Shown: piece by piece, positions 1,124 through 31,723 of the stretch
Numbering within the stretch: position 1 is the stretch's first letter
Layout: every line of letters begins with the position of its first letter
Source: Acidobacteriota bacterium
GTDB lineage: Bacteria; Acidobacteriota; Thermoanaerobaculia; Multivoradales; JBCCEF01
DNA: 33,885 bases
Reading direction: 5' to 3'
Assembly: GCA_039028635.1 (NCBI GenBank)
Contig: JBCCHV010000071.1
Span: forward strand, 1 to 33,885
Position numbers and translations under genes: made by a program
Notes under the pieces: generated by a model
Database searches by the model: none
The model's input: only the letters and a program-made list of their open reading frames with translations
Told to the model about the DNA's origin: nothing

Positions 1124-1687
1124 ATGATCGACCCTTCTGCTGGACACATGACGCGCCTGTTCTCCCGCTGGCGAGGCGGAGACGAGGAGGCTGCCGGGGA
1201 GCTGCTGCCGCTGGTCTATGACGAGCTGCGCCGGCTGGCCCGGGCCTACCTGCGACGCGAGCGGGTGGGGCACACGCTGCAGCCCACGGAGTTGGTGAAC
1301 GAGGCCTTCCTGCGCCTTTTCGGGGCCGAGGCGGAGGCCCTCGATCGGGCCCATTTCTTCGCCCTGGCTTCCGGAGTGATGCGGCGCGTGTTGGTGGATC
1401 ACGCGCGCCGGTTGCGTGCCGAGAAGCGGCCTTCTCCGAACCACCGCATGACGTTGCAGACGGATGTTCGGCAAGCGCCGGGGCCGGAGGTGGAGGTGCT
1501 GGATCTGCACCGTGCTCTGAAGCGCTTTGCGGCCTTTGCGCCGCGACCGGCTCGCTTGTTGGAGCTGCGCTACTTCGGCGGCCTGACCCTCGCTGAAGCG
1601 GCGGAGGTGGCGGGTGTTTCGCGGGCGACGGCGGCGCGCGATTGGGAGGCGGCGCGGGTCTGGTTGAGCGGGGAGCTCGGACGATGA
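1124..1687 (+). CDS. ECF-type RNA polymerase sigma factor (TIGR02999/sigma70-ECF, kinase-linked type)
   Basis: The 187-residue product has the layout of ECF sigma factors. Region 2 contains LLPLVYDELRRLARAYLRRE and the conserved HTLQPTELVNEAFLRLF, with HFFALASGVMRRVLVDHAR after it. Region 4 contains LLELRYFGGLTLAEAAEV followed by the recognition-helix segment GVSRATAARDWEAARVWL. The HTLQPT-LVxEAYLRL pattern is typical of the TIGR02999 subfamily. ATG 1124 was chosen; ATG 1148 (MTRLFSRW) is an equally possible start because many relatives begin there, and neither has a strong ribosome site. Its stop overlaps the kinase ATG by four bases (ATGA), so the two are probably translationally coupled. 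Sigma factors of this type often sit beside Ser/Thr kinases, which may control them in place of an anti-sigma factor; none is visible here. Confidence 0.93.
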   Translation: MIDPSAGHMTRLFSRWRGGDEEAAGELLPLVYDELRRLARAYLRRERVGHTLQPTELVNEAFLRLFGAEAEALDRAHFFALASGVMRRVLVDHARRLRAEKRPSPNHRMTLQTDVRQAPGPEVEVLDLHRALKRFAAFAPRPARLLELRYFGGLTLAEAAEVAGVSRATAARDWEAARVWLSGELGR

Positions 1688-4473: not shown

Positions 4474-7400
4474 ATGTCGTCGAAAGTTTGCCGCACCCTG
4501 TTCTCGCTTCTGCTGTTTTCAGTCTCGCTCAGCCTTCTGACCACTCCAGCCTGGGCCGACGTGCCTTTCGGTTCATCCGTCGATGTCGATACCGGCCTCC
4601 CCGACGCTCGCGATGTGGTGACGGCGGACTTCGATCGCGATGGCGATCTCGACCTGCTGGGTGCGATCGCGAGTGTCGACGATGTCGTTTGGTGGGAGAA
4701 CGCCCTCGGTGACGGCTCAACGTGGAGCCGACACGATCTGAACCTCAATGCCGACCTGCCTCTCGACGTCGAGGCGGCAGATCTCGATGGCGACGGCGAT
4801 CTCGACGCTTTGGCCGCCGTTTTCTTCGATGGCGCGATTCTGTGGTGGGAGAACGACATCGATTCCGGCCTGGCTTGCGGCACGGACTTCTGCGAGGCAA
4901 CGGTCTCCGCCGCCGCCAGCGGCGCCAGCGATGTGGCGGTGGCGGATGTCGACCGTGATGGTGATCTCGATGTGGTGGCGGCGCTGAGGCTGGCGAACCA
5001 ATTCGTCTGGTACAAGAACGATGGTAGCGCCAGCTCGTGGACCTCCCACGTGATCGCCAGCGCGATCGCGCAAGCCCAAGCCGTGGCGCTGGCGGATCTC
5101 GATGGCGACGGCGATCTCGACGTTCTTGGCGGGTCGGCCTCGGTTCAGGGGCTCGTCTGGTTCGAGAACAATCTCGATGGCGCCGGTGCCTGTGCCGGTG
5201 CCTGGTGCCAGACCACCCTCGATGCCGACTTCACCGGGGGTGTCGCCAGTGCCGACCTCGATGGCGATGGCGACCAGGATCTGCTGCAGACCGGCAACTC
5301 GGGGGTGGTGGTCTCGTGGTGGGAGAACACGGTCGGCGATGCTTCGGCCTGGAGCGAGCAGCCGATTACTCTCACCGCGTCGAGCGCCGTCGGCGTGTCG
5401 GCGGTGGATCTCGACTCCGATGGCGATCTCGATGTCCTGGTGCAGGCGAGTGGCGCGGCACGCTGGCTGGAGAACAGCGCCGGCGACGGCACCGTTTGGG
5501 CTGAACGCATCTTCGACCTCGACGACGACTTCCTGCTCACCGCTGGCGATCTCGATGGCGACGGCGATCTCGATGTCACCGGTGCAGGCGATGGTGTGGA
5601 CGCCATCCGTTGGTGGCCCAACGAAACCTTGCATCGCAGCGCTCTGTACGTCACCGAGCGGACGATCTTGGCGAGCGGCGATGACGGCGACACGGCGATT
5701 CTGGTCGACGTCGATCTCGACGGCGACCAGGATCTGGTGGCCGACGGCGGCAGTCCGACGTCGGTGCTGTGGATGGAGAACGATGGCACGCCGCGCGACG
5801 GTGGCTGGAGCGAGACCACGATTCAGGCGGTGGACTTCGCCCTCGGGCTGGCGGCGGAGGACTTGGATCAGGACGGCGATCCGGATCTCATTGCGACCCT
5901 CGGCAATCCAATTCGGTTGTCTTGGCTCGAGAACCCGGCCGACCCGGTCCACGATAGCTGGACCGAGAGGGAGCTGGTTGCGGATCTGCTGGTGATCGGC
6001 ACCATGCCCGATGACGTCGATCGCGACGGCGACCCGGACCTCGTTCTCTACACCGCCTCCAACGAGCTCCTGTGGTTGGAGAACGATGGCAATCCCGCGA
6101 CCGGTGTCTGGACTTTGACCCAGATCATCACCTCCGGTCTGGCCGCCGATCCGGTGCTGGTCGACCTCGACCGGGATGGCGATCACGATCTCGTCGGCCG
6201 CTGGAAGAGCGATCTATTCTCCGCCGCCGGGTTGGTTTGGTGGGAGAACGACGGCACGCCGGAAGGCCCGGACTGGACCCGCCGAGACGTCGCCGCGGCC
6301 TTCGACGCCGAGAATCTCGCCGTCGGCGATGTCGATGGCGATGGCGATCCCGACATCATGGCGGTGGACGACAACGTTGCCGAGCTGGTGTGGTTCGAGA
6401 GCGACGGCTCGCCCCTCGATGGTGGCTGGACGAGGCGGGTCGCGGACACTGCCGTCGTGACCTCGCTGAGGGTTCGCCTGGCCGACGCCGACCGGGACGG
6501 CGATCTCGATCTCTTCGGTGCCGAAGACGCCGACAGCGCGGCGCTTCTGTGGTGGGAGAACGATGGTTCACCGAGCGATGGTGGTTGGGTGCTCCACCCG
6601 GTCGCCAACGGCCAGCTCGATCCAGAGAATCAGGAGATCGGCGATGTCGACGGCGACGGCGACCTCGACTGGATCTTGGCGCAAGAAGATTCGGGCGAGT
6701 TCACCTGGTGGGAGAACCAGGGCGGTCAGTTCGCGCTGCCGACCCTCGATGCGGTGGCCGAGCCGACTCCCAACGAAGGCGCAGGCGACGTCCTGCTGCT
6801 GCGCATCGATGGCGCGCACCGCGGCCGCTCTAGGGACGGTTCCGCCGAGCTGGCGACCCTCGAGCTTCGCTTCGAGGATGACGCTGCCGACCCGCTGACC
6901 GACGCCGAGCTCAATGTCCTGGTCGATCGACTTCGTCTCTATCTCGACGATGGCGATGGCGAGTTCGAACCGGGTGGCGACGATGCGGAGCTCTTCGTCG
7001 CCGCGGGACCGTTCGCGCCCACCGAGGGGGTTTTGACCCTCACCCTCGTCGATGGGGATCCTGCTCTCGAGATCGCCGTTGGTGTGAACACGACCTGGTG
7101 GCTGGCGGCCGATTTCGCTTCGAATGCCGGCTCTCAGGCCCCGGACTCGTTTCAGGTGAGTCATCTCACCAGCGCCTCTTCGACCGGCGAAATGGCCACC
7201 ACCGACCTGCCGCTGTCCCTCGAGTTCGCGGCGGACGTGGCTTCGTCGGTTCTCGCCATCAATGGTGCCCCGGCGGTCGAGCCACCGATTGCGGATCAGG
7301 TGGCGAATGCCGGCGCCCTCTTCGAGCTGGATGTCGCGGCGAGCTTCTTCGATTTCGAGCCCGGTGCTCTGACCTATTCTGCGACCGGCCTGCCCGACTC

Positions 7401-9489
7401 GATGAGCATCACGGGCGGTGGTTTCATCTCGGGCATGCCGACCCTGGCGGAAGCCGCGGCTTCGCCTTACTCGGTGATGGTCACCGCCACCGATGCGGGA
7501 GGCTTGATGGGTATCGACACCTTTTCGCTGTCGGTGGATCCGTTCGGCGGAACGATCGTGATCGACGGTGTCTGTACCCTCTCCGATGCGATTCTCTCGG
7601 CGAACTCGAACAGCGACGTCGGCGCCTGCACCGGTTCTGGAGGCGTCGAGACCTTGGTGCTCGACAGCCCGGTCACCCTGACCGTGGCGGATACGGTGAA
7701 TTCCTCGGCTTTCTCCGGCGACTTCGCCGGCTTGCCGGACGTCACCAGCGAGTTGGTCATCGCAGCCGGCACCGCCAGCCTGATTGAGCGCGACAGCGGC
7801 CTCGGCTGCGTGGCCAATGGACCCGACTTCTTCCGTCTGTTCAATGTCCTCACGGGGGGGCGGCTGATCCTGCGCGGGCTGACCTTGCAGGGCGGTTGTG
7901 CTGGACGGGGAGGAGCCATCGCCGTTCGGGTGGAGGCCGGCCTCGAGCTCGAGGACTGCCGTCTGATCGCCAACCAGGCCCAGGCGAGCCCGGGATCCAG
8001 TACCACCCGGGGAGGCGCTGTTTTCGCGCAGAAGGACTCGACCGGGGTGGTGGTGACGGGCACTCTCTTCGCGGACAACCGGGCAGATGCCGCCGCTACC
8101 GTTGATGTAGCTGCCGAGGGCGGCGCTTTGTATCTCGAACCCAACGCCATCGTCGAGGCGACGATCGCCGAATCGACTTTCCGGCGCAACCAGGCTCTCG
8201 GTGGAGCCGGTCAGGCGGCGCGCGGGGGCGCGATTGCGGCAGGCGTGGTGACCTTGGCGAGCATCGTCGAGACCTCCTTCGAGGAGAACCTGGCGCTGGG
8301 CGGTGACGGCAACGCCGGCGGCGCAGCGGAAGGCGGGGCACTCTTCGTGGCGGCCTCGACGACCTTGACGGAGCTCGTGTTCGTCGGCAACTCGGCGGTT
8401 GGAGGTGACGGCACCGGGGATAGCGGTGGGGTGGCGCTCGGTGGAGCGGTTTTTCGGGAATTCGGGAGCTCGCCGGTAGCGTGGAGCGGCTTGGTGTTCG
8501 AGCGCAACCAGACGGTCGGTGGGAATAGCACCTCGGCCGCTGGAGGGGGAGCCCAGGGAGGCGCTCTGTCAGCCGTCGACGTCGACATCGAACGCGCCTT
8601 CTTCGAGCTCAACTCCTCCTTCGGCGGTTCCGGGGTCACCGGTGGGTTTGCTGCCGCCGGAGGCGCCCAGGTCGACAACGGAGGATCTCTTCGGCAGGTC
8701 AGCTTCGTTGGTAACCGCACTCGCGGCGGCGATGGCACGAGCGGCGATGGTGGGGGGGCGAACGGTGGCGCTTTGCGGTCCATTGGTGAGCTCGAGGTCA
8801 CGGCCGCAACGGCGAGTGAAAACGAGGTCAGGGCCGGGGATAGCGCGACCGCTTCGGGTGGCCAGGCCAGCGGTGGTGGAATGTCGATCTTCGACGGCAG
8901 CCTGTCCCACGTCACCGTGACCGGCAATCGAGTCATCGCCGGCAGCGGCGGTGAAAGCGATGGCACCGCCGTCGGAGGTGGCGTCTTCGTTGGCTCTGTT
9001 TTTCCCTTCGATAACTCCATCCTGGCGGGCAACACGCGTGCCGACGGCGGTGGCTCGCCGATCGCCAACGACTGCTTCCGTCTCGGGGTCAGCGACAGTC
9101 AGGGATTCAATCTGGTCGAGGCGCCGGACAACTGCGACTTTTCGGCCAGCGGTGACCAGACCGGCCTCGATCCCCTGCTCGGTGCACTACGCCGGATGAA
9201 CTGCTCGGTGCCGCTGCCGAACGGCCTGTGCTTGCCGGTTCAGGTGCCCGACATCGCGAGCCCGGCCCTCGACCAGGGAAGCTGTGTCGTTTCAACAGCG
9301 ACCGAGGATGCTCGTGGCTTCGCGCGGCCCTTCGACAACCCCGGCACCGCCGATGCCGCCGATGGCTGCGACATCGGTGCGGTCGAGTACACCGACGCCA
9401 ATGACGACGGTCTCGAAGACGGTCGCGAGATCTTCGGCGATGGCTTCGAGTCCGGCGACACCGCGGCCTGGAGCCAGGAAGTGTTTTAG
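4474..9489 (+). CDS. Large secreted FG-GAP/VCBS-repeat and right-handed beta-helix protein
   Basis: The 1671-residue product starts with a signal peptide (SLLLFSVSLSLLTTPAWA, cleavage about residue 28). Residues about 40-750 hold 14 copies of the calcium-binding motif DxDxDGDxD, each followed by a strand ending in WWEN or similar, spaced about 50-60 residues. This is the pattern of FG-GAP/VCBS beta-propeller blades. Residues about 770-1020 form beta-sandwich-like regions, including a putative Ig/cadherin-like segment (ANAGALFELDVAASFFD). From about 1030 (CTLSDAILSANS) to 1570 lies a Gly/Ala-rich repeat region typical of right-handed beta-helices, then a DGCDIGAVEY segment as in choice-of-anchor Q domains. 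The C-terminus ends DGFESGDTAAWSQEVF, a motif recurring at the ends of secreted proteins in this kind of organism and possibly a sorting signal (inference). ATG 4474 has GGAGG eight bases upstream. Likely cell-surface or secreted; ligand unknown. Confidence 0.92.
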   Translation: MSSKVCRTLFSLLLFSVSLSLLTTPAWADVPFGSSVDVDTGLPDARDVVTADFDRDGDLDLLGAIASVDDVVWWENALGDGSTWSRHDLNLNADLPLDVEAADLDGDGDLDALAAVFFDGAILWWENDIDSGLACGTDFCEATVSAAASGASDVAVADVDRDGDLDVVAALRLANQFVWYKNDGSASSWTSHVIASAIAQAQAVALADLDGDGDLDVLGGSASVQGLVWFENNLDGAGACAGAWCQTTLDADFTGGVASADLDGDGDQDLLQTGNSGVVVSWWENTVGDASAWSEQPITLTASSAVGVSAVDLDSDGDLDVLVQASGAARWLENSAGDGTVWAERIFDLDDDFLLTAGDLDGDGDLDVTGAGDGVDAIRWWPNETLHRSALYVTERTILASGDDGDTAILVDVDLDGDQDLVADGGSPTSVLWMENDGTPRDGGWSETTIQAVDFALGLAAEDLDQDGDPDLIATLGNPIRLSWLENPADPVHDSWTERELVADLLVIGTMPDDVDRDGDPDLVLYTASNELLWLENDGNPATGVWTLTQIITSGLAADPVLVDLDRDGDHDLVGRWKSDLFSAAGLVWWENDGTPEGPDWTRRDVAAAFDAENLAVGDVDGDGDPDIMAVDDNVAELVWFESDGSPLDGGWTRRVADTAVVTSLRVRLADADRDGDLDLFGAEDADSAALLWWENDGSPSDGGWVLHPVANGQLDPENQEIGDVDGDGDLDWILAQEDSGEFTWWENQGGQFALPTLDAVAEPTPNEGAGDVLLLRIDGAHRGRSRDGSAELATLELRFEDDAADPLTDAELNVLVDRLRLYLDDGDGEFEPGGDDAELFVAAGPFAPTEGVLTLTLVDGDPALEIAVGVNTTWWLAADFASNAGSQAPDSFQVSHLTSASSTGEMATTDLPLSLEFAADVASSVLAINGAPAVEPPIADQVANAGALFELDVAASFFDFEPGALTYSATGLPDSMSITGGGFISGMPTLAEAAASPYSVMVTATDAGGLMGIDTFSLSVDPFGGTIVIDGVCTLSDAILSANSNSDVGACTGSGGVETLVLDSPVTLTVADTVNSSAFSGDFAGLPDVTSELVIAAGTASLIERDSGLGCVANGPDFFRLFNVLTGGRLILRGLTLQGGCAGRGGAIAVRVEAGLELEDCRLIANQAQASPGSSTTRGGAVFAQKDSTGVVVTGTLFADNRADAAATVDVAAEGGALYLEPNAIVEATIAESTFRRNQALGGAGQAARGGAIAAGVVTLASIVETSFEENLALGGDGNAGGAAEGGALFVAASTTLTELVFVGNSAVGGDGTGDSGGVALGGAVFREFGSSPVAWSGLVFERNQTVGGNSTSAAGGGAQGGALSAVDVDIERAFFELNSSFGGSGVTGGFAAAGGAQVDNGGSLRQVSFVGNRTRGGDGTSGDGGGANGGALRSIGELEVTAATASENEVRAGDSATASGGQASGGGMSIFDGSLSHVTVTGNRVIAGSGGESDGTAVGGGVFVGSVFPFDNSILAGNTRADGGGSPIANDCFRLGVSDSQGFNLVEAPDNCDFSASGDQTGLDPLLGALRRMNCSVPLPNGLCLPVQVPDIASPALDQGSCVVSTATEDARGFARPFDNPGTADAADGCDIGAVEYTDANDDGLEDGREIFGDGFESGDTAAWSQEVF

Positions 9490-10866: not shown

Positions 10867-12297
10867 TCAGTTCGCCAGATAGCCGAGGGCCTCGAGCTCT
10901 TCGCGCAGGTCATCCGGGATGTCCTGGGGCGTCGAGCGGTTGCGCAGGCCGGCGAAGCGATGGGCGATGAGCTCGCGTAGGGCGACGACTCGGGCCGGGT
11001 GCTGATCGGCGACGTTGACCGTCTCGCCGGGATCCCGCCGCAGGTCGTAGAGCTCGACCGGCTCGAGGGGGTAGTGGTCCAACGGCACGCCGGCCATGCA
11101 CACCGGCTGGACGTTGTCGGGGTTGTCGACCAGCTTCCAGCCGTCGTGGACCACGGTGTGGATGCGCGTGTCGCCGTACTCCGAGTAGGCCGGCTTGCCG
11201 GAACCGCCCTCCCCGGGTCGCTGCAGGTAGGGCACCAGCGAGGAACCGTGGAGGTCCGGCGGTGCCGGCAGGCCCAGGAGGTCGAGCATGGTGGGCAGGA
11301 TGTCGATCAGCTCGACGTCTTGGGGCACCGAGGCGCCGCTCGGCAGCAAGCCGTCGGCAACGAAGGCCAGCGGCACATGGAGCGTGGTCTGGTAGACGGA
11401 GCAGGCGTGGTAGAGGTAGCCGTTGTGCTCGTAGAGCTCCTCGCCGTGATCGGCGAGGAAGACGATCAAGGTGTTGGGCCGCTGCTTCACCTCGTCGAGG
11501 AGACGGCCGGCAAAGCGGTCGGTACCGATGACGGCGGCATCGTAGAGAGCGTCGAGGTGGATGAGGTCGCGCGGGATGAGGGCGAGGCGCTGCTTCATCA
11601 CCTGATCGAGGCGCCACTTCTTCGGCCCTAGGATGCCCTGGTACCCGGGGTCGAGCTGAGTCGCCGCGAGATCGCCGCCGTTGTAGTAGGGCGAATGCGG
11701 TCCGAACAGGTGGACCCAGAGGAAGAAGGGCTCTTCACCGGCCGGTTGGGCGAGCCATTCGAGGGCTTGATTGACCGCTTTCCCGTCTTGCCCGCCACTA
11801 CAGGAGAAGTCGTCCCAGCCGCGGTGATTGGCCCGGCACATGTTGCTCAGGAAGGCGCCCGTGCGGTAGCCGGCGGCTTCGAGGACGAGGGGTAGGGTGG
11901 CGAGATCGTCCGGAAGCGAGTAGCCGTTTTCGATCAAGCCGTGGCCGCTGGGATAGAGACCGGTGAGGGCCGAGGCCATCGAAGGCCAGGTGAGGGCGCG
12001 GGGAGCATGGGCGTTCGCGAAGCGCACCCCTCCGGCAACCAGATGATCGAGGTGAGGGCTGGTCGGCCGGCCCTCGTAGCCATAGGCGCCGAGGCGGTCG
12101 GCGCGCAACGTGTCGACCGAGAGCAGCACGACGTTCCAGCCCTCGGCCGCCGCCTTCAGGCCGCGCGCCGGCTCGGGGGGCGCTGGCGGCGTCTCGCGAC
12201 AGGCGGTCATTAGCAGGGCCGTGATCGAGACGGCCAGCAGGAAGAGGCGGCTGTCGGCCGCGAAGGGTCGGCTTGGGGATGTCCGCGGGCCCGCCAT
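10867..12297 (-). CDS. Sulfatase-superfamily lipoprotein with Thr at the nucleophile position
   Basis: The 476-residue protein has a lipoprotein signal (LFLLAVSITALLMTAC, lipid-attached Cys33). It carries the sulfatase/alkaline-phosphatase-superfamily fold motifs: VDTLRADRLGAYGY with metal ligand Asp62, TWPSMASALTGLYPSGHG, and LADHGEELYEHNG with Asp283/His284. Classical sulfatases have C/S-x-P-x-R, whose Cys or Ser becomes formylglycine. Here the motif is T103-W-P-S-M, so neither the formylglycine precursor nor the Arg is present. Threonine nucleophiles are known in phosphoethanolamine and glycerolphosphate transferases of the same superfamily, so a phospho-substrate hydrolase or transferase is a fair alternative. 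It ends in ELEALGYL, a C-terminal pattern shared with the sulfatase at 18841. Probably anchored to a membrane and periplasm-facing. It converges with rpmG. Confidence 0.92.
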   Translation of the reverse strand: MAGPRTSPSRPFAADSRLFLLAVSITALLMTACRETPPAPPEPARGLKAAAEGWNVVLLSVDTLRADRLGAYGYEGRPTSPHLDHLVAGGVRFANAHAPRALTWPSMASALTGLYPSGHGLIENGYSLPDDLATLPLVLEAAGYRTGAFLSNMCRANHRGWDDFSCSGGQDGKAVNQALEWLAQPAGEEPFFLWVHLFGPHSPYYNGGDLAATQLDPGYQGILGPKKWRLDQVMKQRLALIPRDLIHLDALYDAAVIGTDRFAGRLLDEVKQRPNTLIVFLADHGEELYEHNGYLYHACSVYQTTLHVPLAFVADGLLPSGASVPQDVELIDILPTMLDLLGLPAPPDLHGSSLVPYLQRPGEGGSGKPAYSEYGDTRIHTVVHDGWKLVDNPDNVQPVCMAGVPLDHYPLEPVELYDLRRDPGETVNVADQHPARVVALRELIAHRFAGLRNRSTPQDIPDDLREELEALGYLAN

Positions 12298-12596: not shown

Positions 12597-13265
12597 ATGG
12601 TCCAGTCGAAAGAAACCGTCGATGGCACGGCGGAAGAGGTCTTCGTGGAGCGCTACGGAGCGCTCCTCGAACGAGTGGTCTCGGGAATCGTCGCTCGCCG
12701 TCGGGGCACCTGGAGGGCGGCGAGCGAGGGCTGCGAGGATGTGATTCAGGAGGTTTACTGTCGGCTCTTCGAGCGCGGTGTCGTGCCGCTGCTCGAGCTC
12801 GGGGAAGGGCAGGTGGTGGTCTACTTGCAGCGGGTGGCTCGCCATGTGCTGCTGGATCGTCAGCGCTCTCGACGAACCCGCAAACGCGGCGGTGGCTGGG
12901 TGCGGACCGGCTGGGCTTCGGCGCAGCATTCCTTGGTGGCGGCGGACTCGCCGGAGCAGACGGTGCTGGGGGCGGAGCGTCGCCGGCAGTTCGTCGCGGC
13001 CTGTCGTCGCCTGGCCCGGCGTGGCCCGGCCGGTTGGCGTGATGCCGAGATCTGCGCCCGGGTGTTGCTCGAGGGCTGGACCAGCCGCGAGGTCTCGCGG
13101 GCTTTGCGCGGTGCTCTGGCGCCGACCAGCATCGACTCTCTGCTCTGGCGCATGCGGCGGCGCCTCCAGGAGGCTGAGTTGCCGGAGGGCTGGCGCCAGG
13201 CGCTGGAGACCGCCTTCGGTCTGCGGAGCTCGCGAATAGCCGCTCAACGATATTCGGAGATATGA
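12597..13265 (+). CDS. ECF-like RNA polymerase sigma factor (divergent)
   Basis: The 222-residue product resembles a sigma-70 family member. The region-2 helix pattern is FVERYGALLERVVSGIVARR followed by CEDVIQEVYCRLFE and VYLQRVARHVLLDRQRSRRT. A region-4-like segment follows in the C-terminal half (DAEICARVLLEGWTSREVSR, then a recognition-like helix with SIDSLLWRMRRRLQE). The linker of about 60 residues is longer than usual. ATG 12597 is chosen because GGAAGGAG lies six bases upstream; the frame stays open further upstream to 12543 without support. Its stop overlaps the start of the amidohydrolase gene by four bases (ATGA), implying translational coupling. No anti-sigma factor is adjacent. 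The target regulon is unknown. Confidence 0.8.
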   Translation: MVQSKETVDGTAEEVFVERYGALLERVVSGIVARRRGTWRAASEGCEDVIQEVYCRLFERGVVPLLELGEGQVVVYLQRVARHVLLDRQRSRRTRKRGGGWVRTGWASAQHSLVAADSPEQTVLGAERRRQFVAACRRLARRGPAGWRDAEICARVLLEGWTSREVSRALRGALAPTSIDSLLWRMRRRLQEAELPEGWRQALETAFGLRSSRIAAQRYSEI

Positions 13266-14203
13266 TGGCGTCAATGCGAATCGTGACGGATCCCCGCTGC
13301 CTGGAGCACGCGGCTCCGCTGGGGTATCCGGAGAAGCCGGAGCGCCTGCGGGGCGTGCTCGCGGCGTTGCGCCGGGACGGCTTCGAGGTCGTCGAAACGG
13401 AGCCCACGAAGCGGCCCCGCGAGGCCGTCGAGGCGCTTCACGACGGCGCCTATGTGGAGCGCTTCGCGCGCGCTGTGGAGCGCGGCGACGGTCTTCTCGA
13501 TTCGGCCGACAACCCTCTGTCAGCAGGGACCTTCGAAGCCTCTTTGGGGGCGGTCGAAGCCATCTTGGCGGGCGCGGACTGGGTGATGGCGGAAGCCGGC
13601 CGCAAGGCGATGGCGGCGGTGCGGCCGCCGGGCCATCACGCCGAGGAGGCGCGCGCCATGGGCTTCTGCTTCTTCAATGGCATCGCGGTGGCGGCGCAGG
13701 ACCTGATTCGCCGGCAGCTCTGCCAGCGAGTGGCGATCTTCGACTTCGACGTCCATCACGGCAACGGCACCCAGCATCTCTTCGAGGAGCGCTCCGACGT
13801 GTTCTTCGTCAGCACCCATCAGTTCCCCTTCTATCCGGGAACCGGTGCGGCCGAAGAACGCGGTCAGGGCGCCGGAACCGGTACCACCCTCAATCTGCCG
13901 ATGGCGGCCGGGGCCGGGGATGAGGAGTATGGACGGGTTTTCGAGGAGTCCGTGTTCCCCGCCCTGCGGCGCTTTGCTCCCGACGTACTGCTGGTATCGG
14001 CCGGATTCGACGCCTGGCGCGGCGATCCGCTGGGCGGTATGCGGGTCAGTGCCGAGGGCTTTGCGGACTGGGGGCGTCGTCTTGCCGCCCTCAGTGCAGA
14101 GCTCTGTGAAGGGCGGCTGATGATGGTGCTGGAGGGGGGATATGACCTCGATGAGCTTCCGGAGCTGGTGTCGGGGTGTTGCCGAGCGATGCTTGGAAAT
14201 TGA
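13262..14203 (+). CDS. Histone deacetylase family (class II-like) amidohydrolase
   Basis: The 313-residue product has all hallmarks of the zinc-dependent arginase/deacetylase fold: RPPGHHA (121-127), DFDVHHGNGT (161-170, zinc ligands Asp163 and His165), STHQFPFYPGTG, SAGFDAWRGDPLGG (zinc ligand Asp250) and LEGGYDL with the transition-state Tyr294. The catalytic set is complete. Bacterial members remove acyl groups from polyamines, acetoin-related enzymes, or other acetyl-lysine targets; the substrate cannot be read from sequence. The length is that of a single-domain enzyme and no signal peptide is seen, so it is cytoplasmic. The ATG at 13262 overlaps the sigma factor stop; a second ATG directly follows, and a third start (MRIVTD) is possible 12 nt downstream. 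Confidence 0.95.
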   Translation: MMASMRIVTDPRCLEHAAPLGYPEKPERLRGVLAALRRDGFEVVETEPTKRPREAVEALHDGAYVERFARAVERGDGLLDSADNPLSAGTFEASLGAVEAILAGADWVMAEAGRKAMAAVRPPGHHAEEARAMGFCFFNGIAVAAQDLIRRQLCQRVAIFDFDVHHGNGTQHLFEERSDVFFVSTHQFPFYPGTGAAEERGQGAGTGTTLNLPMAAGAGDEEYGRVFEESVFPALRRFAPDVLLVSAGFDAWRGDPLGGMRVSAEGFADWGRRLAALSAELCEGRLMMVLEGGYDLDELPELVSGCCRAMLGN

Positions 14204-18840: not shown

Positions 18841-20724
18841 TTACAGGTAACCGAGGGCGCGAAGGCGCTCGCGGTCTTCTTCCGTGACCTCGCCGGCGGT
18901 GGCTTTGGGGGCCGGCCGGCGGCTGCTAAGCCAGCGCTCGAGGAGGGCGATCAGGCGCTCTTCCTCTTCATCGCCCTGGCCGGCGAGGTTTTGGCGCTCG
19001 TTGGGGTCCTCGGCGAGGTCGTAGAACAGGTAGCCATCTTCCTGGAAGGGGCTCCCGACGGTCGAGATCAGCTTGTGATCGTCGGTTCGCACCATCGCCC
19101 CGTGACCGTGGGCGTGCTCGCTGAACACCACCCGGCGTCCCTTTTCGCCGTGTTCTTGGAGGGCCAGGCCATCGCTCTCGGGAGCCTCGACGGCGGCTGC
19201 CGAGAGCAGGGTGGGGAAGAGATCGATGCTCTGCACCAGGGCGTCGAGGCGGCGGCCCCGATGCGGCCGTCCGGCGGCGTCGAGGGGGACCTGGCCATCG
19301 GGCCAGCGGATCATCAGCGGAACATGGGTGGTGGTGTCCCAGAGGCCGTTGTGGCGGTAGAGGACGCCGTGATCGCCGAGGTTCTCGCCGTGGTCGGCGA
19401 CCAGGGCGAGGAGGGTCGAGTCGAGGCGCTCGATGCCGGCGAGAAAGCCCGTCAAGCGATCGATCTGACGGTCGAGGTAGGCGACCTCGCCGTGATAGAG
19501 GTCGACCTGCCCTCCCAGAACACGCTCTTCGTACTCGCGCGGCCCCGGCTGCCGGAAGAGGGACCAGCCGGCAATGCTGCCCAGGCCGTAGGGCTCGGCG
19601 GCCCGCAGGCCGGAAGCCCAGGGCTGGGGCGGGGTGTGGGGAGTGTGGGAGTCGAACAGGTGGAGCCAGATGAACAGGGGACGGCGATCGTCCGAGGCCT
19701 GATGGTCGGCGATGAAGTCGATCGCCATGTCGACCACCAACTCGCCGGCGAACACCTCCTCGGTCACCACCACCTCCTCGAAGCCCTGGCCGAGGCCCGA
19801 GACCCGCGGCCCGAGGTGGCGTGCCGAGATGATCGCCAGGGTGCGGTAGCCGGCCTCGGCGAGCAGCTCGGCGAGGGTTTCGTGATCTTCCGGTAGCGGC
19901 GTGATCAGGTCGTAGATGCCGTGGTTCTTGCCGTAGAGGCCGGTGAGAATCGAGGTGAAGCTCGGGTTGGTGACGTTGAAGGCCGAGAAGGCGCGGCTCC
20001 AGACGTCGCTTTCGCTGGCCAGGCGGTCGATCGCCGGCGTCAGGCTGGGCTCGAATCCCCGGGGTCCGAGGGAGTCGGCGCGCAGGGTATCGAGGCCGAG
20101 GAGGAGGATGTCGGGACGATCGGTCGGTGCGGTGGGTTTCACCGGCAGGCGGCGGTAGAGGGCGGGGCTGCCCCATAGAGCCCAAGGGGTGACGCCCTCG
20201 GTGAGCCGAACGCCGGGCAGCGGGTCGATCTGGAAGAGGATCTCGATGGCGGTGTCGCCGAAGCGCGACAGGTCGATCTCGAGGGTCGCCGGTGCCAGCA
20301 CGCCGTCCGTCTCGACCGCGCTGGCCCAGAGCTCGTGGACGATGCCGTCGGCGTCGCGTACGCCGGCTCGGTAGCGGCAGCGACAGGCGCCGTTCGGGCT
20401 GCCCAGCGGAATGAAGGAGAGGTAGGCCTCGGCCGGCAGATCGACCGGCCAGGCGAGGCGGGTCCCACCTTGCTGGCCGAGGGAGCGGGCCAGGCTGCCG
20501 GCGCGCCGGGCGCGGTACTTGCGACTGCCTACGTCCTTTTCGCTGCGCAGGCCGAGGTTGTCGAGGCGACGCTCGAAGGAACGGCCGCGTCGCGGCGTCG
20601 GCTGCTCGATCTCGGGCCGCGCCGTCCACAGGTCGTAGCGCTGCCAGGAGTGGCTGATCTCGGCCGGCGGCGGGGGGCCACAAGCGGTCAACAGCAGGAG
20701 GGCGAGAACGGCGGTCGGGCGCAT
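18841..20724 (-). CDS. Sulfatase-superfamily lipoprotein with N-terminal beta domain
   Basis: The 627-residue protein starts with a lipoprotein signal (MRPTAVLALLLLTAC, Cys15). Residues about 85-195 form an extra beta-rich domain before the sulfatase fold. The fold begins at LLLGLDTLRADSLGPRGF (metal ligand Asp212), continues with NVTNPSFTSILTGLYGKNHG and reaches VADHGENLGDHGVLYRHN in the last third. As in the sulfatase at 10867, the nucleophile site is Thr (T252-N-P-S-F), not Cys or Ser, so a formylglycine enzyme is unlikely. The C-terminus is RLRALGYL. The start lies 41 bp after the acyltransferase stop in the same direction, so it may be the last gene of the Kdo/lipid A operon; a role in lipid A or envelope phosphate modification is inference. 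The frame runs upstream beyond this start, but that part overlaps the acyltransferase in another frame. Confidence 0.93.
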   Translation of the reverse strand: MRPTAVLALLLLTACGPPPPAEISHSWQRYDLWTARPEIEQPTPRRGRSFERRLDNLGLRSEKDVGSRKYRARRAGSLARSLGQQGGTRLAWPVDLPAEAYLSFIPLGSPNGACRCRYRAGVRDADGIVHELWASAVETDGVLAPATLEIDLSRFGDTAIEILFQIDPLPGVRLTEGVTPWALWGSPALYRRLPVKPTAPTDRPDILLLGLDTLRADSLGPRGFEPSLTPAIDRLASESDVWSRAFSAFNVTNPSFTSILTGLYGKNHGIYDLITPLPEDHETLAELLAEAGYRTLAIISARHLGPRVSGLGQGFEEVVVTEEVFAGELVVDMAIDFIADHQASDDRRPLFIWLHLFDSHTPHTPPQPWASGLRAAEPYGLGSIAGWSLFRQPGPREYEERVLGGQVDLYHGEVAYLDRQIDRLTGFLAGIERLDSTLLALVADHGENLGDHGVLYRHNGLWDTTTHVPLMIRWPDGQVPLDAAGRPHRGRRLDALVQSIDLFPTLLSAAAVEAPESDGLALQEHGEKGRRVVFSEHAHGHGAMVRTDDHKLISTVGSPFQEDGYLFYDLAEDPNERQNLAGQGDEEEERLIALLERWLSSRRPAPKATAGEVTEEDRERLRALGYL

Positions 20725-23214: not shown

Positions 23215-26584
<3,370 letters not shown>

Positions 26585-26730: not shown

Positions 26731-27450
26731 ATGCGATCCCTCGCCTTCAAGGCCCCCCGCCCCGGGGAGCCGTCTCCGTCCGCCGAAGATCCGGCGCAGC
26801 TCGGCTTCGAGTTGAAGTATGCCTTCGATCGCTGGTCCCTTGGCGTTGTCGAGAGTCATCTCGCGGCGGCCTGTCGGCGCGATCCGGAGCACCCGAGCAA
26901 TACGGTGGTCAGCGTCTATTTCGATACTCCCGATCTGGTGCTGTTGCGGCAGAAGGCAGACAGCCTCTATCTCAAAACCAAGCTTCGCCTGCGCTGGTAT
27001 CGCTCCCCCGGAGCGCCTCCCTCGCAGGCTTTCTGGGAGCTCAAGCGGCGGGTCGGCAACCGGCGCTCGAAGCGGCGTTGGCCCACCACTCTCGAGGGGG
27101 CGGCGATCGAACGGCGATCCTTCGCGGCTCTCGCCAGCTTGCCGATGCCCCCCGACCTGTTGGCCGAAGAGCTGCCCTGGCCGTTGTTGCCGATCCTCCA
27201 GGTCGCCTATCGCCGTCGTCGCTATGTCGATCCCCACGGCGGCGTGCGCATGAGCTGCGACAGCGCCATCACCGCGGAGCGCGGGCACCCCCTCCTCGGC
27301 AGGAGCCGTCGCGGGGTCCTCGCCGGCGGCGTGGTGGAGGCCAAGGGGAGTCGTGCGGTGGCGCCGCCGTGTCTGCAGGGGTTGTTTGGGCGATTGTGTT
27401 TTCGCAGCTCTTTTTCGAAGTATGACGCCTGCTATCGCAGCTTGACATGA
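26731..27450 (+). CDS. VTC-domain polyphosphate polymerase-like protein
   Basis: The 239-residue product is a VTC/CYTH-like tunnel-fold enzyme. Visible are FELKYAF (Glu27, Lys29), SVYFDTPDL, KTKLRLRWYR with the basic cluster (82-91), FWELKRRVG (Glu103, Lys105), YRRRRYV, VVEAKG (203) and SSFSKYD at the end. The alternating acidic and basic residues are those expected to hold metal and phosphate chains. Such domains make or bind polyphosphate. The ATG 26731 gives 25 residues before the first strand; the frame is open upstream to a GTG at 26644 and no ribosome site decides between them. It is followed within 44 bp by the DUF4956 gene, a common pairing. The stop at 27450 follows SLT. It is cytoplasmic by its lack of a signal. 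Confidence 0.85.
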   Translation: MRSLAFKAPRPGEPSPSAEDPAQLGFELKYAFDRWSLGVVESHLAAACRRDPEHPSNTVVSVYFDTPDLVLLRQKADSLYLKTKLRLRWYRSPGAPPSQAFWELKRRVGNRRSKRRWPTTLEGAAIERRSFAALASLPMPPDLLAEELPWPLLPILQVAYRRRRYVDPHGGVRMSCDSAITAERGHPLLGRSRRGVLAGGVVEAKGSRAVAPPCLQGLFGRLCFRSSFSKYDACYRSLT

Positions 27451-27493
27451 GGTCGATGGCGATGAATTGCGACGTTTCCTGGGAGAGGTGGCC

Positions 27494-28198
27494 ATGAGCC
27501 TGCAAGCTGGTTGGAAGGCGTTGGACGTATTTCGCGATCCCGAAGTGGCGGCCATCGGTCCGCTGCCCTTTCTCCTCGCCATGGCCCTTTCCCTGGCCTG
27601 CGGCCTGTGGATCGCCTTTCTCTACCGCAGCTTCTATGCTCGCACCGAGACCGGCTCGCAGATTCATCGCTCCTTTCCCCTGCTCGCCCTCGCGATCACC
27701 GCGATCTTCGTCTGTATTCAGTTCTCCTTGCCCCTATCCCTCGGCCTGTTGGGTGCGCTTTCGATCGTGCGCTTTCGTACCCCGATCAAAGAGCCGGAGG
27801 AGATTGGCTTCCTGATGGTGGTGATCGCCACCTCGCTGGCCTGTGCCACTTTTCAGTTCGTTTTTCTGGCCATTCTCCTCGCGCTGGTGCTTTTGGCGCT
27901 GCTCCTACGGGGTCTGGCGCCCTCCTTCCTGACTTCGACCACCCGTCACGGCATGCTTCTGCTGACCCTGCCCGGTGAGCGCTGGCAAGAGGCCAAGGAC
28001 GAGCTGTTCGCCGAGCTCGGCCGCAGCGTGCCGCGGGGGCGCCTCGAAAGCCTCACCGTCGGTGAGGCCGAGGTGGCGGTGACCTACGGTTTCCGGAACC
28101 TGGCGCCGGCCGAGCTGGTCGAGCTCGAGGGTCGCCTGACGGGGACCGTTCCGGAGCTCGCCTTGACTCTCAGCTATCACCGACCGGGAGCTCCGTGA
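27494..28198 (+). CDS. DUF4956 membrane protein
   Basis: The 234-residue product has about four membrane helices in the first 140 residues (around 24-44, 61-80, 104-120 and 121-139) with the family signature LGALSIVRFRTPIKEPEEIG at 87-106. A cytoplasmic domain of about 90 residues follows (TTRHGMLLLTLPGERWQEAK onward). The family is of unknown function and is repeatedly found beside VTC and CotH genes, which is also the case here. The ATG 27494 is preceded by GAGAGG. The stop overlaps the CotH start by four bases (GTGA). Confidence 0.93.
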   Translation: MSLQAGWKALDVFRDPEVAAIGPLPFLLAMALSLACGLWIAFLYRSFYARTETGSQIHRSFPLLALAITAIFVCIQFSLPLSLGLLGALSIVRFRTPIKEPEEIGFLMVVIATSLACATFQFVFLAILLALVLLALLLRGLAPSFLTSTTRHGMLLLTLPGERWQEAKDELFAELGRSVPRGRLESLTVGEAEVAVTYGFRNLAPAELVELEGRLTGTVPELALTLSYHRPGAP

Positions 28199-29643
28199 AG
28201 GCTTGGCCGGGGCGGGGAATCTGGGGCACTTCGGCCCTGCTTCTCCTGCTCGCGGCGGCGATTGTTTTCGAGCTCCACCCGGCGGGCCGCGCGGCGACCT
28301 CGGCGGCGCAGCGTCAGCGGGTCGGCGGCGCCGAGATCGGTGACGGGCGTCTGCCGAAAATCCTGGCCGCCCTCGGTGCTCTGCGCAGCCGCGCGCCGGA
28401 AAGCGGTTCCGACCAGCCGCGGCGGATACCGGCCGCGGCGGAGCCGGTGGATTGGGAGACCGCCGGCGCGCGCCGCGACGGCTCCGGCGTCGGTTCCGAG
28501 GCCGGCGAGGGCCCGCGTCGGCTCTCGATCACGGTGTCGCCGGCGGCTCTCGAGGGTTTGCTCGAGCAACCTCGGCAGAAGCTCGAAGCCTCCGCCGAGA
28601 TGGTGCTGCGACAGGGTGAGCGCGTGCTCTATGCCGGCTTCGTCGGCTTGCGTCTTCACGGTGGCCGCAGTCGCCGGTTCGGTCCGGTGCGCAGCTGGCG
28701 GCTGGTCTTCCGGCCGACGCAGGGGGCCGCGGGGCTGGCGCTGAGTCTGCTCCATTGGCCCGGAGATGAGCCTCTGACGCGGCTGATCGTCCATGGCGAC
28801 CAGCGGACCGATGCTGCCGGCGACCTCTGGCGCATGACCAATCCGATCGCCCTCGAAGTGGCGCAGCGGCTGGGCGCCGCGGTGCCCCAAACGGCGCCCG
28901 CACGGCTCGAGATCAACGGCCGAGACCACGGCCTGGTGTTTCTCACCGAGCCGATCGATCTCGCCTATCTGCGTCGCCACCGCGGCCATGACCGCTTCGT
29001 CTTGGTGCGGTCGAAGCGCGATCGGCGCGAGAGCCGCTGGCGAGCGGGAACGGTCCTGCACTGGCGCCTGGCCCAGAAGTGGTGGCGTCGCCAGCCCGAC
29101 CGCAGCTACGACGAGATTCGGGCGCGCTACGATCTGGCAAGCCTCGAGGCCTGGTTTCTGGCCTCCCTGACCTGCGGCACCACGGATGCCTATCAGGGGG
29201 CCCTGGTGCGCGACGAGAGCGCGCCGCTGGGACGCTGGAGCTGGATCGCCTGGGACATGGATCAGAGCTTCATGGCAGCGCGCCAGCCGATGACCGAGCC
29301 CTGGCAGGAAGACGTTTGGGCGCACCTCCTGCGGCGCCCTCGGGACGACTTTCGCAATCCCATTCTGCGCACCCTGATCCGCAACAGCCCGCAGTACCGG
29401 CAGCGCCTGGCGGAGCGTCTGCGTTGGGCCCTCGACGAGCGCCTCGACGAGGCCTTCCGCGACGCCCTGTTGGGCCGCTATCGGGAGATCGCCGAGCACT
29501 ACCAGGTGGCGGACGACGAGTCGCTGGATCGCATCGAAGAGTTTCTCGAGAGGCGGCCAGCGGTGTTGCGGGCCCGCGTCGCCGAGCGCTTGCCGCGCGG
29601 AGATCTGGGGGGAGCGCTACCGCCGTCGCCGACGCCGAGATAG
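28195..29643 (+). CDS. CotH-family protein kinase-like protein, membrane-anchored
   Basis: The 482-residue protein starts with an N-terminal hydrophobic anchor (GTSALLLLLAAAIVFEL, residues 11-27). CotH-like blocks follow: VGLRLHGGRSRRFGPVRSW, LEINGRDHGLVFLTEPIDLA, HDRFVLVRSKRDRRE (from about 264) and the catalytic-type WSWIAWDMDQSFMA (about 347-360), with WDMD as the metal-binding signature. The kinase fold is atypical and phosphorylates secreted or spore-coat proteins in known examples. It starts at a GTG overlapping the DUF4956 stop. It probably faces the periplasm. Its substrate may be linked to the polyphosphate genes, but that is inference. Confidence 0.9.
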   Translation: MKAWPGRGIWGTSALLLLLAAAIVFELHPAGRAATSAAQRQRVGGAEIGDGRLPKILAALGALRSRAPESGSDQPRRIPAAAEPVDWETAGARRDGSGVGSEAGEGPRRLSITVSPAALEGLLEQPRQKLEASAEMVLRQGERVLYAGFVGLRLHGGRSRRFGPVRSWRLVFRPTQGAAGLALSLLHWPGDEPLTRLIVHGDQRTDAAGDLWRMTNPIALEVAQRLGAAVPQTAPARLEINGRDHGLVFLTEPIDLAYLRRHRGHDRFVLVRSKRDRRESRWRAGTVLHWRLAQKWWRRQPDRSYDEIRARYDLASLEAWFLASLTCGTTDAYQGALVRDESAPLGRWSWIAWDMDQSFMAARQPMTEPWQEDVWAHLLRRPRDDFRNPILRTLIRNSPQYRQRLAERLRWALDERLDEAFRDALLGRYREIAEHYQVADDESLDRIEEFLERRPAVLRARVAERLPRGDLGGALPPSPTPR

Positions 29644-29656
29644 GCTCGGCGCCGTG

Positions 29657-30778
29657 ATGGCTCGCCCCCTATCCCTCGCCGGCTGGCTCTTGGCCGGCCT
29701 TTTCCTCGCCTGGCTGGCGGTTGCCCAGCTCCCCGGGCGCTCGCTGTTCGATCTCGACCGCCCGGGCCTCTCCCCGGCGCGCTGGATCTGGCCCGAAGGA
29801 CCGCGCGATCGACGGTCGCCACTGGCCTTCTGGGCAGTGGCGGACTTTGCCGTGACCGCGCCTCGCCGAGCGGTGACCCTCGAGGTCATCGCCGACGAGG
29901 AGTACGTCGCCTATCTCGATGGCCGTCGGGTCGGCTTCGGCCGCTTCTCAGCTCAGCGAGGTCTCGATGCCTGGACCCTCGCCGAGGGCCTCGAGGTGGG
30001 CAGTCATCGGCTGCTGATCGAGGTGCGCAGCGGGCGCGGTGCTGGTGGGTTGCTGGCCCGTTTGGTGGCCGATGACGGTGAAGTCCTGGCGGCGAGCGGT
30101 GAGGCCTGGCGGATCGAACGACGTGCCGAGGCCGGCGTTCTCGCCGGTTGGCTGCCGGTCGAGACTCCGGAGGGCAAAGGCGTGACGCTCTCTTGGGGCC
30201 CACCGGTGGTCGGTCGCTGGCAGGATCTCGGCGTCCGGTCACCTCGGCCGGCGTGGCCGTTGGCGACGGCGGAGGGATTCCGTTTGCCGGTGCGGGCGCG
30301 CCTGGTCGGGGAGGCGGAATCCTGGCGCCAGCGCGGCGAGACCGCGACTCCGATCGACCTCCGAGAGCCGGTGCCGGGGGTGATCTTCGACTTCGGGGCC
30401 GTGGTTTCGGGAGTCCTGCACCTCGAGCTCGGCGGTGGCGAAAACGTTCGCTGTGCCCTCGCCTTCCTGTCCGATCGGCCGAGTGACCCCTTCACCTCTG
30501 ATGGCGTCGGTGAAGGTGCGCTGGTGCGGCCGGTGGTCCCGGTGCCGGGGAATCGGCGCTGGCAGGCGGCGGAGGCGGTGTCCTTTCGCTACGTCACCGT
30601 CCTCGGGGCGATCGGCGGGGCCACGGCCTGGCTCGAGCCGGCCGCCGCCGACGGCGAGGAGGCCGAGGCGAAGGGCCCCTTGGGACTCTCGGGGCCGCGC
30701 CTACGAACGCCGATCGAGGACGAAATCCGGCGCGAGCTCCAGCGCTTCCCGGGCCTCACAGGGGCGGAAGAACTCTAG
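29657..30778 (+). CDS. Membrane-anchored beta-sandwich protein resembling the N-terminal domain of bacterial alpha-L-rhamnosidases
   Basis: The 373-residue product has an N-terminal anchor (SLAGWLLAGLFLAWLAVAQL, residues 5-24). A segment then resembles the rhamnosidase N-terminal domain (ARWIWPEG, FWAVADFAV, EVIADEEYVAYLDGRRVGFG, then AWTLAEGLEVGSHRLLIEV). A second beta domain covers about 195-330 (GVIFDFGAVVSGVLHLELGG). The glycosidase catalytic domain is absent, so a binding role is more likely than hydrolysis. It is 13 bp behind the CotH gene and closes this four-gene operon. Its 3' end runs 78 bp over the 3' end of the polyprenyl synthase gene on the other strand. ATG 29657 is chosen; an overlapping GTG at 29654 is possible. 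Confidence 0.75.
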   Translation: MARPLSLAGWLLAGLFLAWLAVAQLPGRSLFDLDRPGLSPARWIWPEGPRDRRSPLAFWAVADFAVTAPRRAVTLEVIADEEYVAYLDGRRVGFGRFSAQRGLDAWTLAEGLEVGSHRLLIEVRSGRGAGGLLARLVADDGEVLAASGEAWRIERRAEAGVLAGWLPVETPEGKGVTLSWGPPVVGRWQDLGVRSPRPAWPLATAEGFRLPVRARLVGEAESWRQRGETATPIDLREPVPGVIFDFGAVVSGVLHLELGGGENVRCALAFLSDRPSDPFTSDGVGEGALVRPVVPVPGNRRWQAAEAVSFRYVTVLGAIGGATAWLEPAAADGEEAEAKGPLGLSGPRLRTPIEDEIRRELQRFPGLTGAEEL

Positions 30779-31723
30779 CTCCGCCTTGGCCCGGGCCGAG
30801 TAGTCGCGGGCGATCTGACGGGTTTCGTCGAGGGTGCCCTCGCGCTCGACGAGCTCGAGGATTTGCTGAGCGGCGACGCGCTCGAAGGCGCGGTCCTCGA
30901 GAACCTGGGCGATCAGCTGACGGTCGGCCGGCGCGATCCGCGGCAGGAGCAGGATCAGCGGTAGCGTCAGCTTGCCCTCCTTGAGGTCCGAGAGCACCGG
31001 CTTGCCGAGCTCCTCCTCACGGCCATCGAAATCGAGCAGGTCGTCGACCAGCTGAAAGCAGACGCCAAGATGGGCGCCGTAGCGCTCGAGAGCCTCTCCG
31101 GCCTCCGGCCGCAGCGGCGGAATCAAGGCCGGGACGGCGCAAGCGGCGGCAAACAGGCGCGCCGTCTTGCGGTCGATGATCTCGAAGTACTCGTCGGTGG
31201 TGAGATCGATCGCCCCCAAGCGATGCAGTGCCAGGAGCTCCCCTTCGGTCATCCGCAGGGTGGCGTCGACCAGCTTCTGGAGCACTTCGACGCGCTGGTG
31301 GGACAAGGCCTTCTGCATCGCCAGGGTATAGATCCAGTCCCCCAGGAGAACCGTCGGGTGATTGCCCCAGATCTGATTGAGGGTGGCTTGGCCGCGGCGC
31401 AGATCGGCGTGATCGATGACGTCATCGTGGATCAGGGTGGCGGTGTGGATCAGCTCGACCACCGCGGCGTAGGTCACCTCTTCCTCGCCGTCGCGGCCGA
31501 GGAGGCGCGAAGCCAGCAGCACCAGGGCCGGTCGCACTCGCTTGCCGCCGCCCTCGGCGAGGTAGGTGCCGGCCTCGCGAATGCGCGGCACGTCCGCTGC
31601 CAGGGCCTCCCGGAACACCGCTTCGGTGGCCTCGAGCTTGTCCGCGATCAAGGCGAGGAAGGACGCCGGGGAGCGGCGTGGGGTGAGGGGGGTGGGCTGC
31701 GATGGCAAGGGCTGGCCTTTCAT
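30701..31723 (-). CDS. Polyprenyl diphosphate synthase (octaprenyl-type, long chain)
   Basis: The 340-residue enzyme shows both Asp-rich motifs: DDVIDHADLRRG (Asp100, 101, 104) and FQLVDDLLDFDG (Asp227, 228, 231). GKRVRPALVLL precedes them. The residue five before the first motif is Ala, which in this family goes with long chains; the product may be the quinone side chain. It condenses isopentenyl diphosphate with allylic diphosphates in the cytoplasm. The ATG 31723 lies 24 bp after the end of the preceding gene (31748), so they may be cotranscribed with yajQ. The 3' end overlaps the convergent gene ending at 30778 by 78 bp. Confidence 0.93.
   Translation of the reverse strand: MKGQPLPSQPTPLTPRRSPASFLALIADKLEATEAVFREALAADVPRIREAGTYLAEGGGKRVRPALVLLASRLLGRDGEEEVTYAAVVELIHTATLIHDDVIDHADLRRGQATLNQIWGNHPTVLLGDWIYTLAMQKALSHQRVEVLQKLVDATLRMTEGELLALHRLGAIDLTTDEYFEIIDRKTARLFAAACAVPALIPPLRPEAGEALERYGAHLGVCFQLVDDLLDFDGREEELGKPVLSDLKEGKLTLPLILLLPRIAPADRQLIAQVLEDRAFERVAAQQILELVEREGTLDETRQIARDYSARAKAELEFFRPCEAREALELAPDFVLDRRS

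Follow-up and report, generated by a model that had tools for sequence, protein, structure and literature searches.

A VTC-DUF4956-CotH gene module occurring without PelG, most likely inserted beside a resident envelope gene in a genus of Acidobacteriota

Do four genes that follow one another closely on the same strand of an Acidobacteriota genome form one functional unit, and what could such a unit do? The window analyzed in this study, a stretch of 33,885 nucleotides, is contig 71 of a 117-contig, 6.28-Mb assembly. Its plus strand carries four consecutive reading frames, encoding a polyphosphate-polymerase-like VTC-domain (triphosphate tunnel) protein, predicted to be cytosolic (26731..27450), a DUF4956 membrane protein consisting of a helix bundle, an RFRTPIKEPEE loop and a C-terminal ferredoxin-like or ACT-like domain (27494..28198), a CotH-type kinase with an N-terminal membrane helix and a catalytic domain predicted to be extracytoplasmic (28195..29643), and a membrane-anchored beta-sandwich protein resembling lectins and rhamnosidase N-terminal domains, here called F4 (29654..30778). 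The preliminary description of these genes as co-directional with overlaps or short gaps is borne out: the GTG start of cotH at 28195 shares 4 bases with the DUF4956 stop codon, and 10 bases separate the cotH stop (29643) from the F4 start, GTG 29654. The start of the VTC gene, which ends with its stop codon at 27450, is ambiguous (ATG 26731 or GTG 26644); that of the DUF4956 gene is most likely ATG 27494, preceded by the stretch GGGAGAGG, TTG 27467 being a possible start as well. To the left lies a divergent gene that, judging from synteny and its translation, we take to be kdsB (25790..26584, minus strand), and to the right a convergent polyprenyl synthetase gene (30701..31723, minus strand; PF00348, 227.4 bits), which overlaps the 3' end of F4. 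A scan for promoters and terminators detected a single site resembling a promoter, which lies on the strand of kdsB, and nothing that would pass convincingly as a terminator.

The family assignments made earlier for the first three genes stand, as all of them exceed the Pfam cut-offs: PF09359 for VTC (68 bits, cut-off 23), PF16316 for DUF4956 (53.9 bits, cut-off 30.6, with the frame from 27467), and PF08757 for CotH (63.6 bits, cut-off 23.8). Each is present in one copy in the window genome. All three are also matched in the genome of Corynebacterium glutamicum, which served as a control. F4 matches no family in the Pfam scan. For the four proteins, NCBIfam gave nothing meaningful and PADLOC gave no match, the latter speaking against an anti-phage system.

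The resemblance of F4 to rhamnosidase N-terminal domains was confirmed by a profile of 31 F4 proteins, which matches the lectin 6kbj (E 2.4e-18) and the rhamnosidases 3w5m and 2okx (E ~2e-15) over the N-terminal half of F4. Its assignment to a four-gene unit did not survive the survey of 98 related genomes. F4 is found in 87 of them, whereas VTC, DUF4956, and CotH occur in 16, 15, and 14, respectively, and the association between VTC and F4 is nil (Fisher p 0.43, relatedness ignored). Of the 15 genomes with both genes, two have them close together: the window genome and its congener G001, whose locus L033 is, besides that of the window, the sole case of the trio lying between kdsB and F4. In the genomes outside the genus that possess both, VTC and F4 are located on different contigs; for instance, in G005, whose trio (L038) is the closest one from another genus, F4 is on a different contig. 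The full sequences of 17 trio loci from other relatives (L034-L050) gave no F4 match, and no relatives of F4 were found in the contigs of named genomes. Twenty further F4 neighbourhoods (L053-L072) were read with the window proteins as tblastn queries; the gene finder used in the analysis missed F4 itself, owing to its 3' overlap. They contain kdsB in 15 cases, the polyprenyl synthetase in 10, and LolA in 16, and 18 of the 20 carry one or more genes of the block KdsC-KdsD-KdsA-PyrG-KdsB / F4 / polyprenyl synthetase-CarbReg-YajQ-LolA, while in none of the 20 did tblastn match the VTC, DUF4956, or CotH protein of the window. The gap between kdsB and F4 is occupied by a GDSL-type protein gene in L063 and by a gene for an ABC1-type kinase-like protein in L069.

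Since F4 usually lies in the kdsB block without the trio in the relatives, F4 is the probable resident and the trio the newcomer. The comparison shows that F4 has a history of its own, as a putative envelope gene that resides throughout the order next to genes for lipopolysaccharide and the outer membrane. In this genus, the site between kdsB and F4 is where the trio was most likely inserted, and F4 may by now share a transcript with it. The opposite reading, that the four genes constitute one functional operon in which F4 is a glycan-binding partner directing the kinase, draws on the tight co-directional spacing, on the lectin- or rhamnosidase-like domain of F4, and on the identical four-gene order in the single congener G001, where F4 is 45% identical. 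It is nevertheless very improbable, given that 72 of the 98 relatives have F4 without VTC, that the proximity of the two genes is confined to one genus, and that the 17 trio loci read from other relatives contain no match to F4. Thus F4 is discarded as a fourth partner.

That VTC, DUF4956, and CotH often occur together, as proposed in the preliminary description, was upheld by the survey. Among the 98 relatives, VTC and CotH are found together in 14, VTC without CotH in two, and CotH without VTC in none, so that VTC is present in all 14 CotH-bearing relatives; DUF4956 is present in 15 of the 16 VTC-bearing ones (Fisher p 4e-15 for VTC-CotH and 9e-17 for VTC-DUF4956, relatedness ignored) and accompanies VTC in 33 of the 35 VTC loci retrieved. 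A DUF4956 profile scan of named genomes gave at least 578 confirmed loci, of which the best 80 were used. VTC is present in 73 of these best 80, CotH in 65, and all three genes in 61; in the 7 loci that lack VTC, the record ends near the DUF4956/CotH pair. The record titles of the best 80 name Spirochaetia, Desulfobacterales, Desulfobulbus alkaliphilus DSM 24258, Planctomycetota, Oligoflexia, Fibrobacteres, Verrucomicrobia, Kiritimatiellae, Bacteroidetes, Pelagibacteraceae single cells, Pseudoalteromonas, Myxococcales, a Dehalococcoidales MAG, and a Woesearchaeota MAG. These comparisons show what appears from the sequences to be a strong and widespread bacterial unit.

Across 317 genomes of the phylum, VTC was found in 18, CotH in 38, and both in 15. 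VTC is thus rarely present without CotH, whereas CotH often occurs without VTC (23 of 38 genomes), which refutes the idea that every exported CotH depends on VTC. A search for another fourth partner, by clustering the neighbours at the best 80 of the at least 578 loci, gave families present in at most 12 of the 80; by eye, the two top clusters resemble glycosyltransferase 2 and sugar epimerase. Among ten neighbours at other trio loci, hand-picked for their glycan-like look, 7 match glycan-related families and 3 match none. The polyphosphate kinase PPK1 is present in the window genome and in 82 of the 98 relatives and has no association with VTC (Fisher p 0.49, relatedness ignored). The suggestion that VTC stands in for a missing PPK1 is therefore refuted here.

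The preliminary description knew of no account of what these genes do. This is roughly right with respect to function, but the trio itself has been described before, and deletion phenotypes have been published. Pel clusters of Gram-positive bacteria are reported to carry accessory genes for CotH, a polyphosphate polymerase, DUF4956, and DUF4832 (PMC7112168). In Streptococcus intermedius, deletion of the DUF4956-like gene and of cotH lowers aggregation and changes the level of Pel, while for the polymerase deletion no loss of aggregation is reported (PMC12345266). The accessory group of streptococci, clostridia, and bifidobacteria, cotH-PPP-DUF4956(-DUF4832) (PMC7112168; SIR_1592-1594, PMC12345266), resembles the window trio in the adjacency of the same families and in combining a secreted CotH with a four-TM protein that has a C-terminal ACT domain. 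Unlike it, the window locus has no DUF4832 match in the Pfam scan of neighbouring genes, and its CotH is predicted to be membrane-anchored and lacks the usual lysine (see below). A similar arrangement is VTC-'tubulin'-CotH of NELoc-2 in Clostridium perfringens, described with a membrane protein of ~222-226 aa between VTC and CotH (PMC2879425); we infer that these 'tubulin/FtsZ' proteins belong to DUF4956.

The 2025 report on S. intermedius states that the syntenic arrangement was not found outside Pel (PMC12345266). PelG (PF16933) was not found in the window genome or in the 16 VTC-bearing relatives, the one weak match among the 98 relatives being in a VTC-less genome. Nor was it found in any of the 50 named genomes tested, which were taken from the best 80 of the at least 578 DUF4956 loci and of which 41 hold all three trio genes; among 14 control genomes, PelG was matched in Thermotoga maritima only. 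Because the trio occurs where PelG is not found, the published statement that no such arrangement was found elsewhere does not hold generally. What is new here is this Pel-free form of the trio, together with an altered class of CotH.

The structural model of the window CotH (pLDDT 79.4) has an N-terminal helix at residues 7-27 and superimposes on CotH of Bacillus cereus (5jd9) with Z 30.0 and an rmsd of 2.7 over 322 residues; the next matches are phosphatidylinositol 4-kinases (Z ~13) and secreted Fam20 kinases (Z ~11). Asp331 and Asp354 correspond to D228 and D251 of B. subtilis CotH by their 23-residue spacing, which is the same in 5jd9. In B. subtilis, D228Q and D251A cause loss of function (PMC7821199). 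In one alignment of 43 CotH proteins, from which the two rows of L120 and that of L130 were left out as copies of genomes already included (G324 and G045), D354 is conserved in 43 and D331 in 42, and both are kept in all 23 CotHs of the window type. Thus the window protein is similar to the spore-coat kinases (5jd9/5jda; PMC7821199) in fold and in the two catalytic aspartates. It differs from them in being, by prediction, exported and anchored, and in the absence of the lysine of the N-terminal motif: after the glycine-rich turn, where 5jd9 has FEKKSY, the window CotH has valine. Lysine occupies this site in 2 of the 23 window-type proteins, a set that includes the ordinary-looking and probably misaligned L139, versus lysine or arginine in 20 of 20 CotHs from VTC-less genomes. 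Loss of the lysine is not a mark of all trio CotHs, as most of the long type-B CotHs have a lysine close to that site, judged from their consensus aligned to a different reference than the window-type set. A hydrophobic N-terminus is present in 52 of 52 CotHs, a count biased upward by choosing starts that maximise hydrophobicity; with starts chosen in the same way, the 20 CotHs read from VTC-less genomes of the phylum also look exported. From the N-terminal helix of the model, the catalytic domain of the window CotH is predicted to lie outside the cytoplasm.

The 234-aa DUF4956 protein carries the RFRTPIKEPEE signature noted earlier, in which R93, F94, R95, K99, and P101 are invariant in 62 sequences. 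The earlier term 'four-helix membrane protein' is close; the model (mean pLDDT 88.0) has five long helices followed by a C-terminal ferredoxin-like domain. In a Foldseek search, this domain matches MgtC 7qa5 (E 4e-4) and 2lqj (E 2e-3), with many ferredoxin-like folds scoring similarly, and a second structure search contained no MgtC chain among the 50 matches listed.

The best PDB match of the VTC profile is Vtc4 (3g3q, E 4e-23), and the residues K29, R86, R88, K105, K114, R162, R173, E203, K205, and K230 of the window protein, invariant in 25 sequences, correspond in the profile alignment to K200, R264, R266, K281, K294, R361, R373, E426, K428, and K458 of Vtc4, where R264, R266, E426, and K458 are named in papers and the remaining numbers were counted from the alignment. 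The window protein thus shares with the eukaryotic VTC complex (Vtc4, 3g3q; PMC9911596) the tunnel domain, the same catalytic residues and a membrane partner. It is unlike it in that the 239-aa protein shows a single Pfam family and no SPX domain, that DUF4956 is not of the Vtc1 family by Pfam, and that an invariant glutamate, E27 (25 of 25), stands two residues before the first tunnel lysine, where Vtc4 has threonine (T198). By our own mapping, the position of E27 seems to correspond to Glu-4 of AtTTM3, which belongs to the acidic patch of tripolyphosphatases (PMC4641920). At the chain exit, where a basic patch would mark a polymerase and an acidic one a tripolyphosphatase, the window protein combines E27 at the place of Vtc4 T198 with K205 at that of K428. 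As this glutamate recalls the tripolyphosphatase patch, the VTC protein is likely, rather than certainly, a polyphosphate polymerase.

We propose, with confidence no better than middling, that the locus contains a copy of the VTC-DUF4956-CotH module inserted between kdsB and F4, in which polyphosphate is made at the membrane and an exported kinase phosphorylates the envelope. On the cytosolic side of the membrane, VTC would likely use ATP to build a phosphate polymer; DUF4956, as we guess from the constant pairing, could hold VTC at the membrane and gate or pass its product; and the anchored CotH, with its catalytic domain outside, would phosphorylate an envelope glycan or protein, F4 being a separate envelope protein. 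For the kinase, polyphosphate could be the donor, a regulator, or an unconnected product. The original guess of an envelope polyphosphate and phosphorylation system thus seems fair for the first three genes, where the VTC residues, the CotH aspartates, and the membrane helix are kept, and finds no support for F4. In favour of this chain are the surface-glycan genes that neighbour some trio loci elsewhere. Against it are the CotHs of VTC-less genomes in the phylum, the presence of PPK1 here and the fact that, to our knowledge, enzyme activity has not been ascribed to any of the prokaryotic members. The VTC protein could instead be a tripolyphosphatase or another tunnel enzyme, the trio sensing or degrading phosphate compounds, with DUF4956 acting like MgtC in the control of phosphate or ATP. 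The glutamate at the place of Glu-4, the similarity of the DUF4956 C-terminal domain to that of MgtC (7qa5), and the designation of the streptococcal homologue as MgtC-like in PMC12345266 agree with this reading. We consider it rather unlikely, as K205 sits at the place of Vtc4 K428, in the strand where AtTTM3 would have Glu-171 by our own mapping, Vtc4 is the best profile match, and the exported kinase partner is left unexplained.

No less doubtful, though conceivable, is the suggestion made for Pel, that the trio tunes the output of an extracellular polysaccharide via protein phosphorylation and that polyphosphate is incidental. It agrees with the altered Pel level and aggregation of the S. 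intermedius deletion mutants and with the glycan genes among neighbours of other trio loci, but these neighbours were selected for such a look, and the polysaccharide cannot be Pel here or in the 50 named genomes without PelG. The polymer is possibly not needed for the effect of the kinase, since no loss of aggregation is reported for the S. intermedius polymerase deletion. The same observation weakens a bolder version of the proposed module, an export of phosphate currency in which VTC makes polyphosphate, DUF4956 lets it pass, and the lysine-lacking CotH uses it in place of ATP on envelope glycans or proteins, at a site devoid of ATP. This version would explain why a polyphosphate-type synthase is constantly paired with an exported kinase and why the N-lobe motif of the window-type CotHs is altered, but exported-looking CotHs exist in genomes without VTC and type-B trio CotHs seem to retain a lysine, and we regard this version as improbable.

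The locus illustrates how a tandem gene array can mislead, its fourth gene being accounted for by the insertion. The trio spans many phyla, and DUF4956 is seldom mentioned in the literature searched, mostly as entries in tables and lists. Its frequent occurrence without PelG frees the module from the Pel interpretation. The source of ATP for CotH in the spore coat is called unanswered in PMC7821199; the phosphate supply of an extracytoplasmic kinase is a question that the trio makes testable.

The gene content of the junction between kdsB and the beta-sandwich protein gene (F4) varies between families. Among the F4 neighbourhoods of relatives, one contains a GDSL-type protein gene at this position (L063:8010-9266) and another an ABC1-type protein gene (L069:4620-6314). 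This difference between families suggests that the kdsB-F4 junction is a recurrent insertion site.

Elsewhere in the window, the gene for an ECF sigma factor precedes one for a Ser/Thr protein kinase that carries TPR repeats (1148-4350). Other products of the window are a protein of 1671 aa that contains nine FG-GAP repeats together with a putative Ig domain (4474-9489), and a histone-deacetylase-family protein (13265-14200; 298 bits). Two sulfatase-family proteins are also borne by this single 34-kb contig, both on the minus strand (10867-12297 and 18841-20724). Judged by eye, a sulfatase-like cluster adjoins the VTC, DUF4956, and CotH genes in seven of the 80 named loci, the best 80 of at least 578.

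A second CotH type, 800-1000 aa long, accompanies DUF4956 and VTC within loci L140-L192 (for instance, L143, L147, and L178) and in the relatives G022, G029, G033, and G063. Among 28 proteins of this type, the position corresponding to the first catalytic Asp, assigned by eye, is occupied by His in 93%, the second catalytic Asp is retained in 96%, and the C-terminal repeat region carries near-invariant DxDF, DxSGS, DK..S.GE.S, and KD.S motifs.

Finally, among the best 80 of at least 578 loci, the DUF4956 module was found in single-cell genomes of Pelagibacteraceae (L140, L143, L151, L160, L174, L180, L184, L188, and L189), whose very small genomes are an odd setting for such an accessory envelope system.
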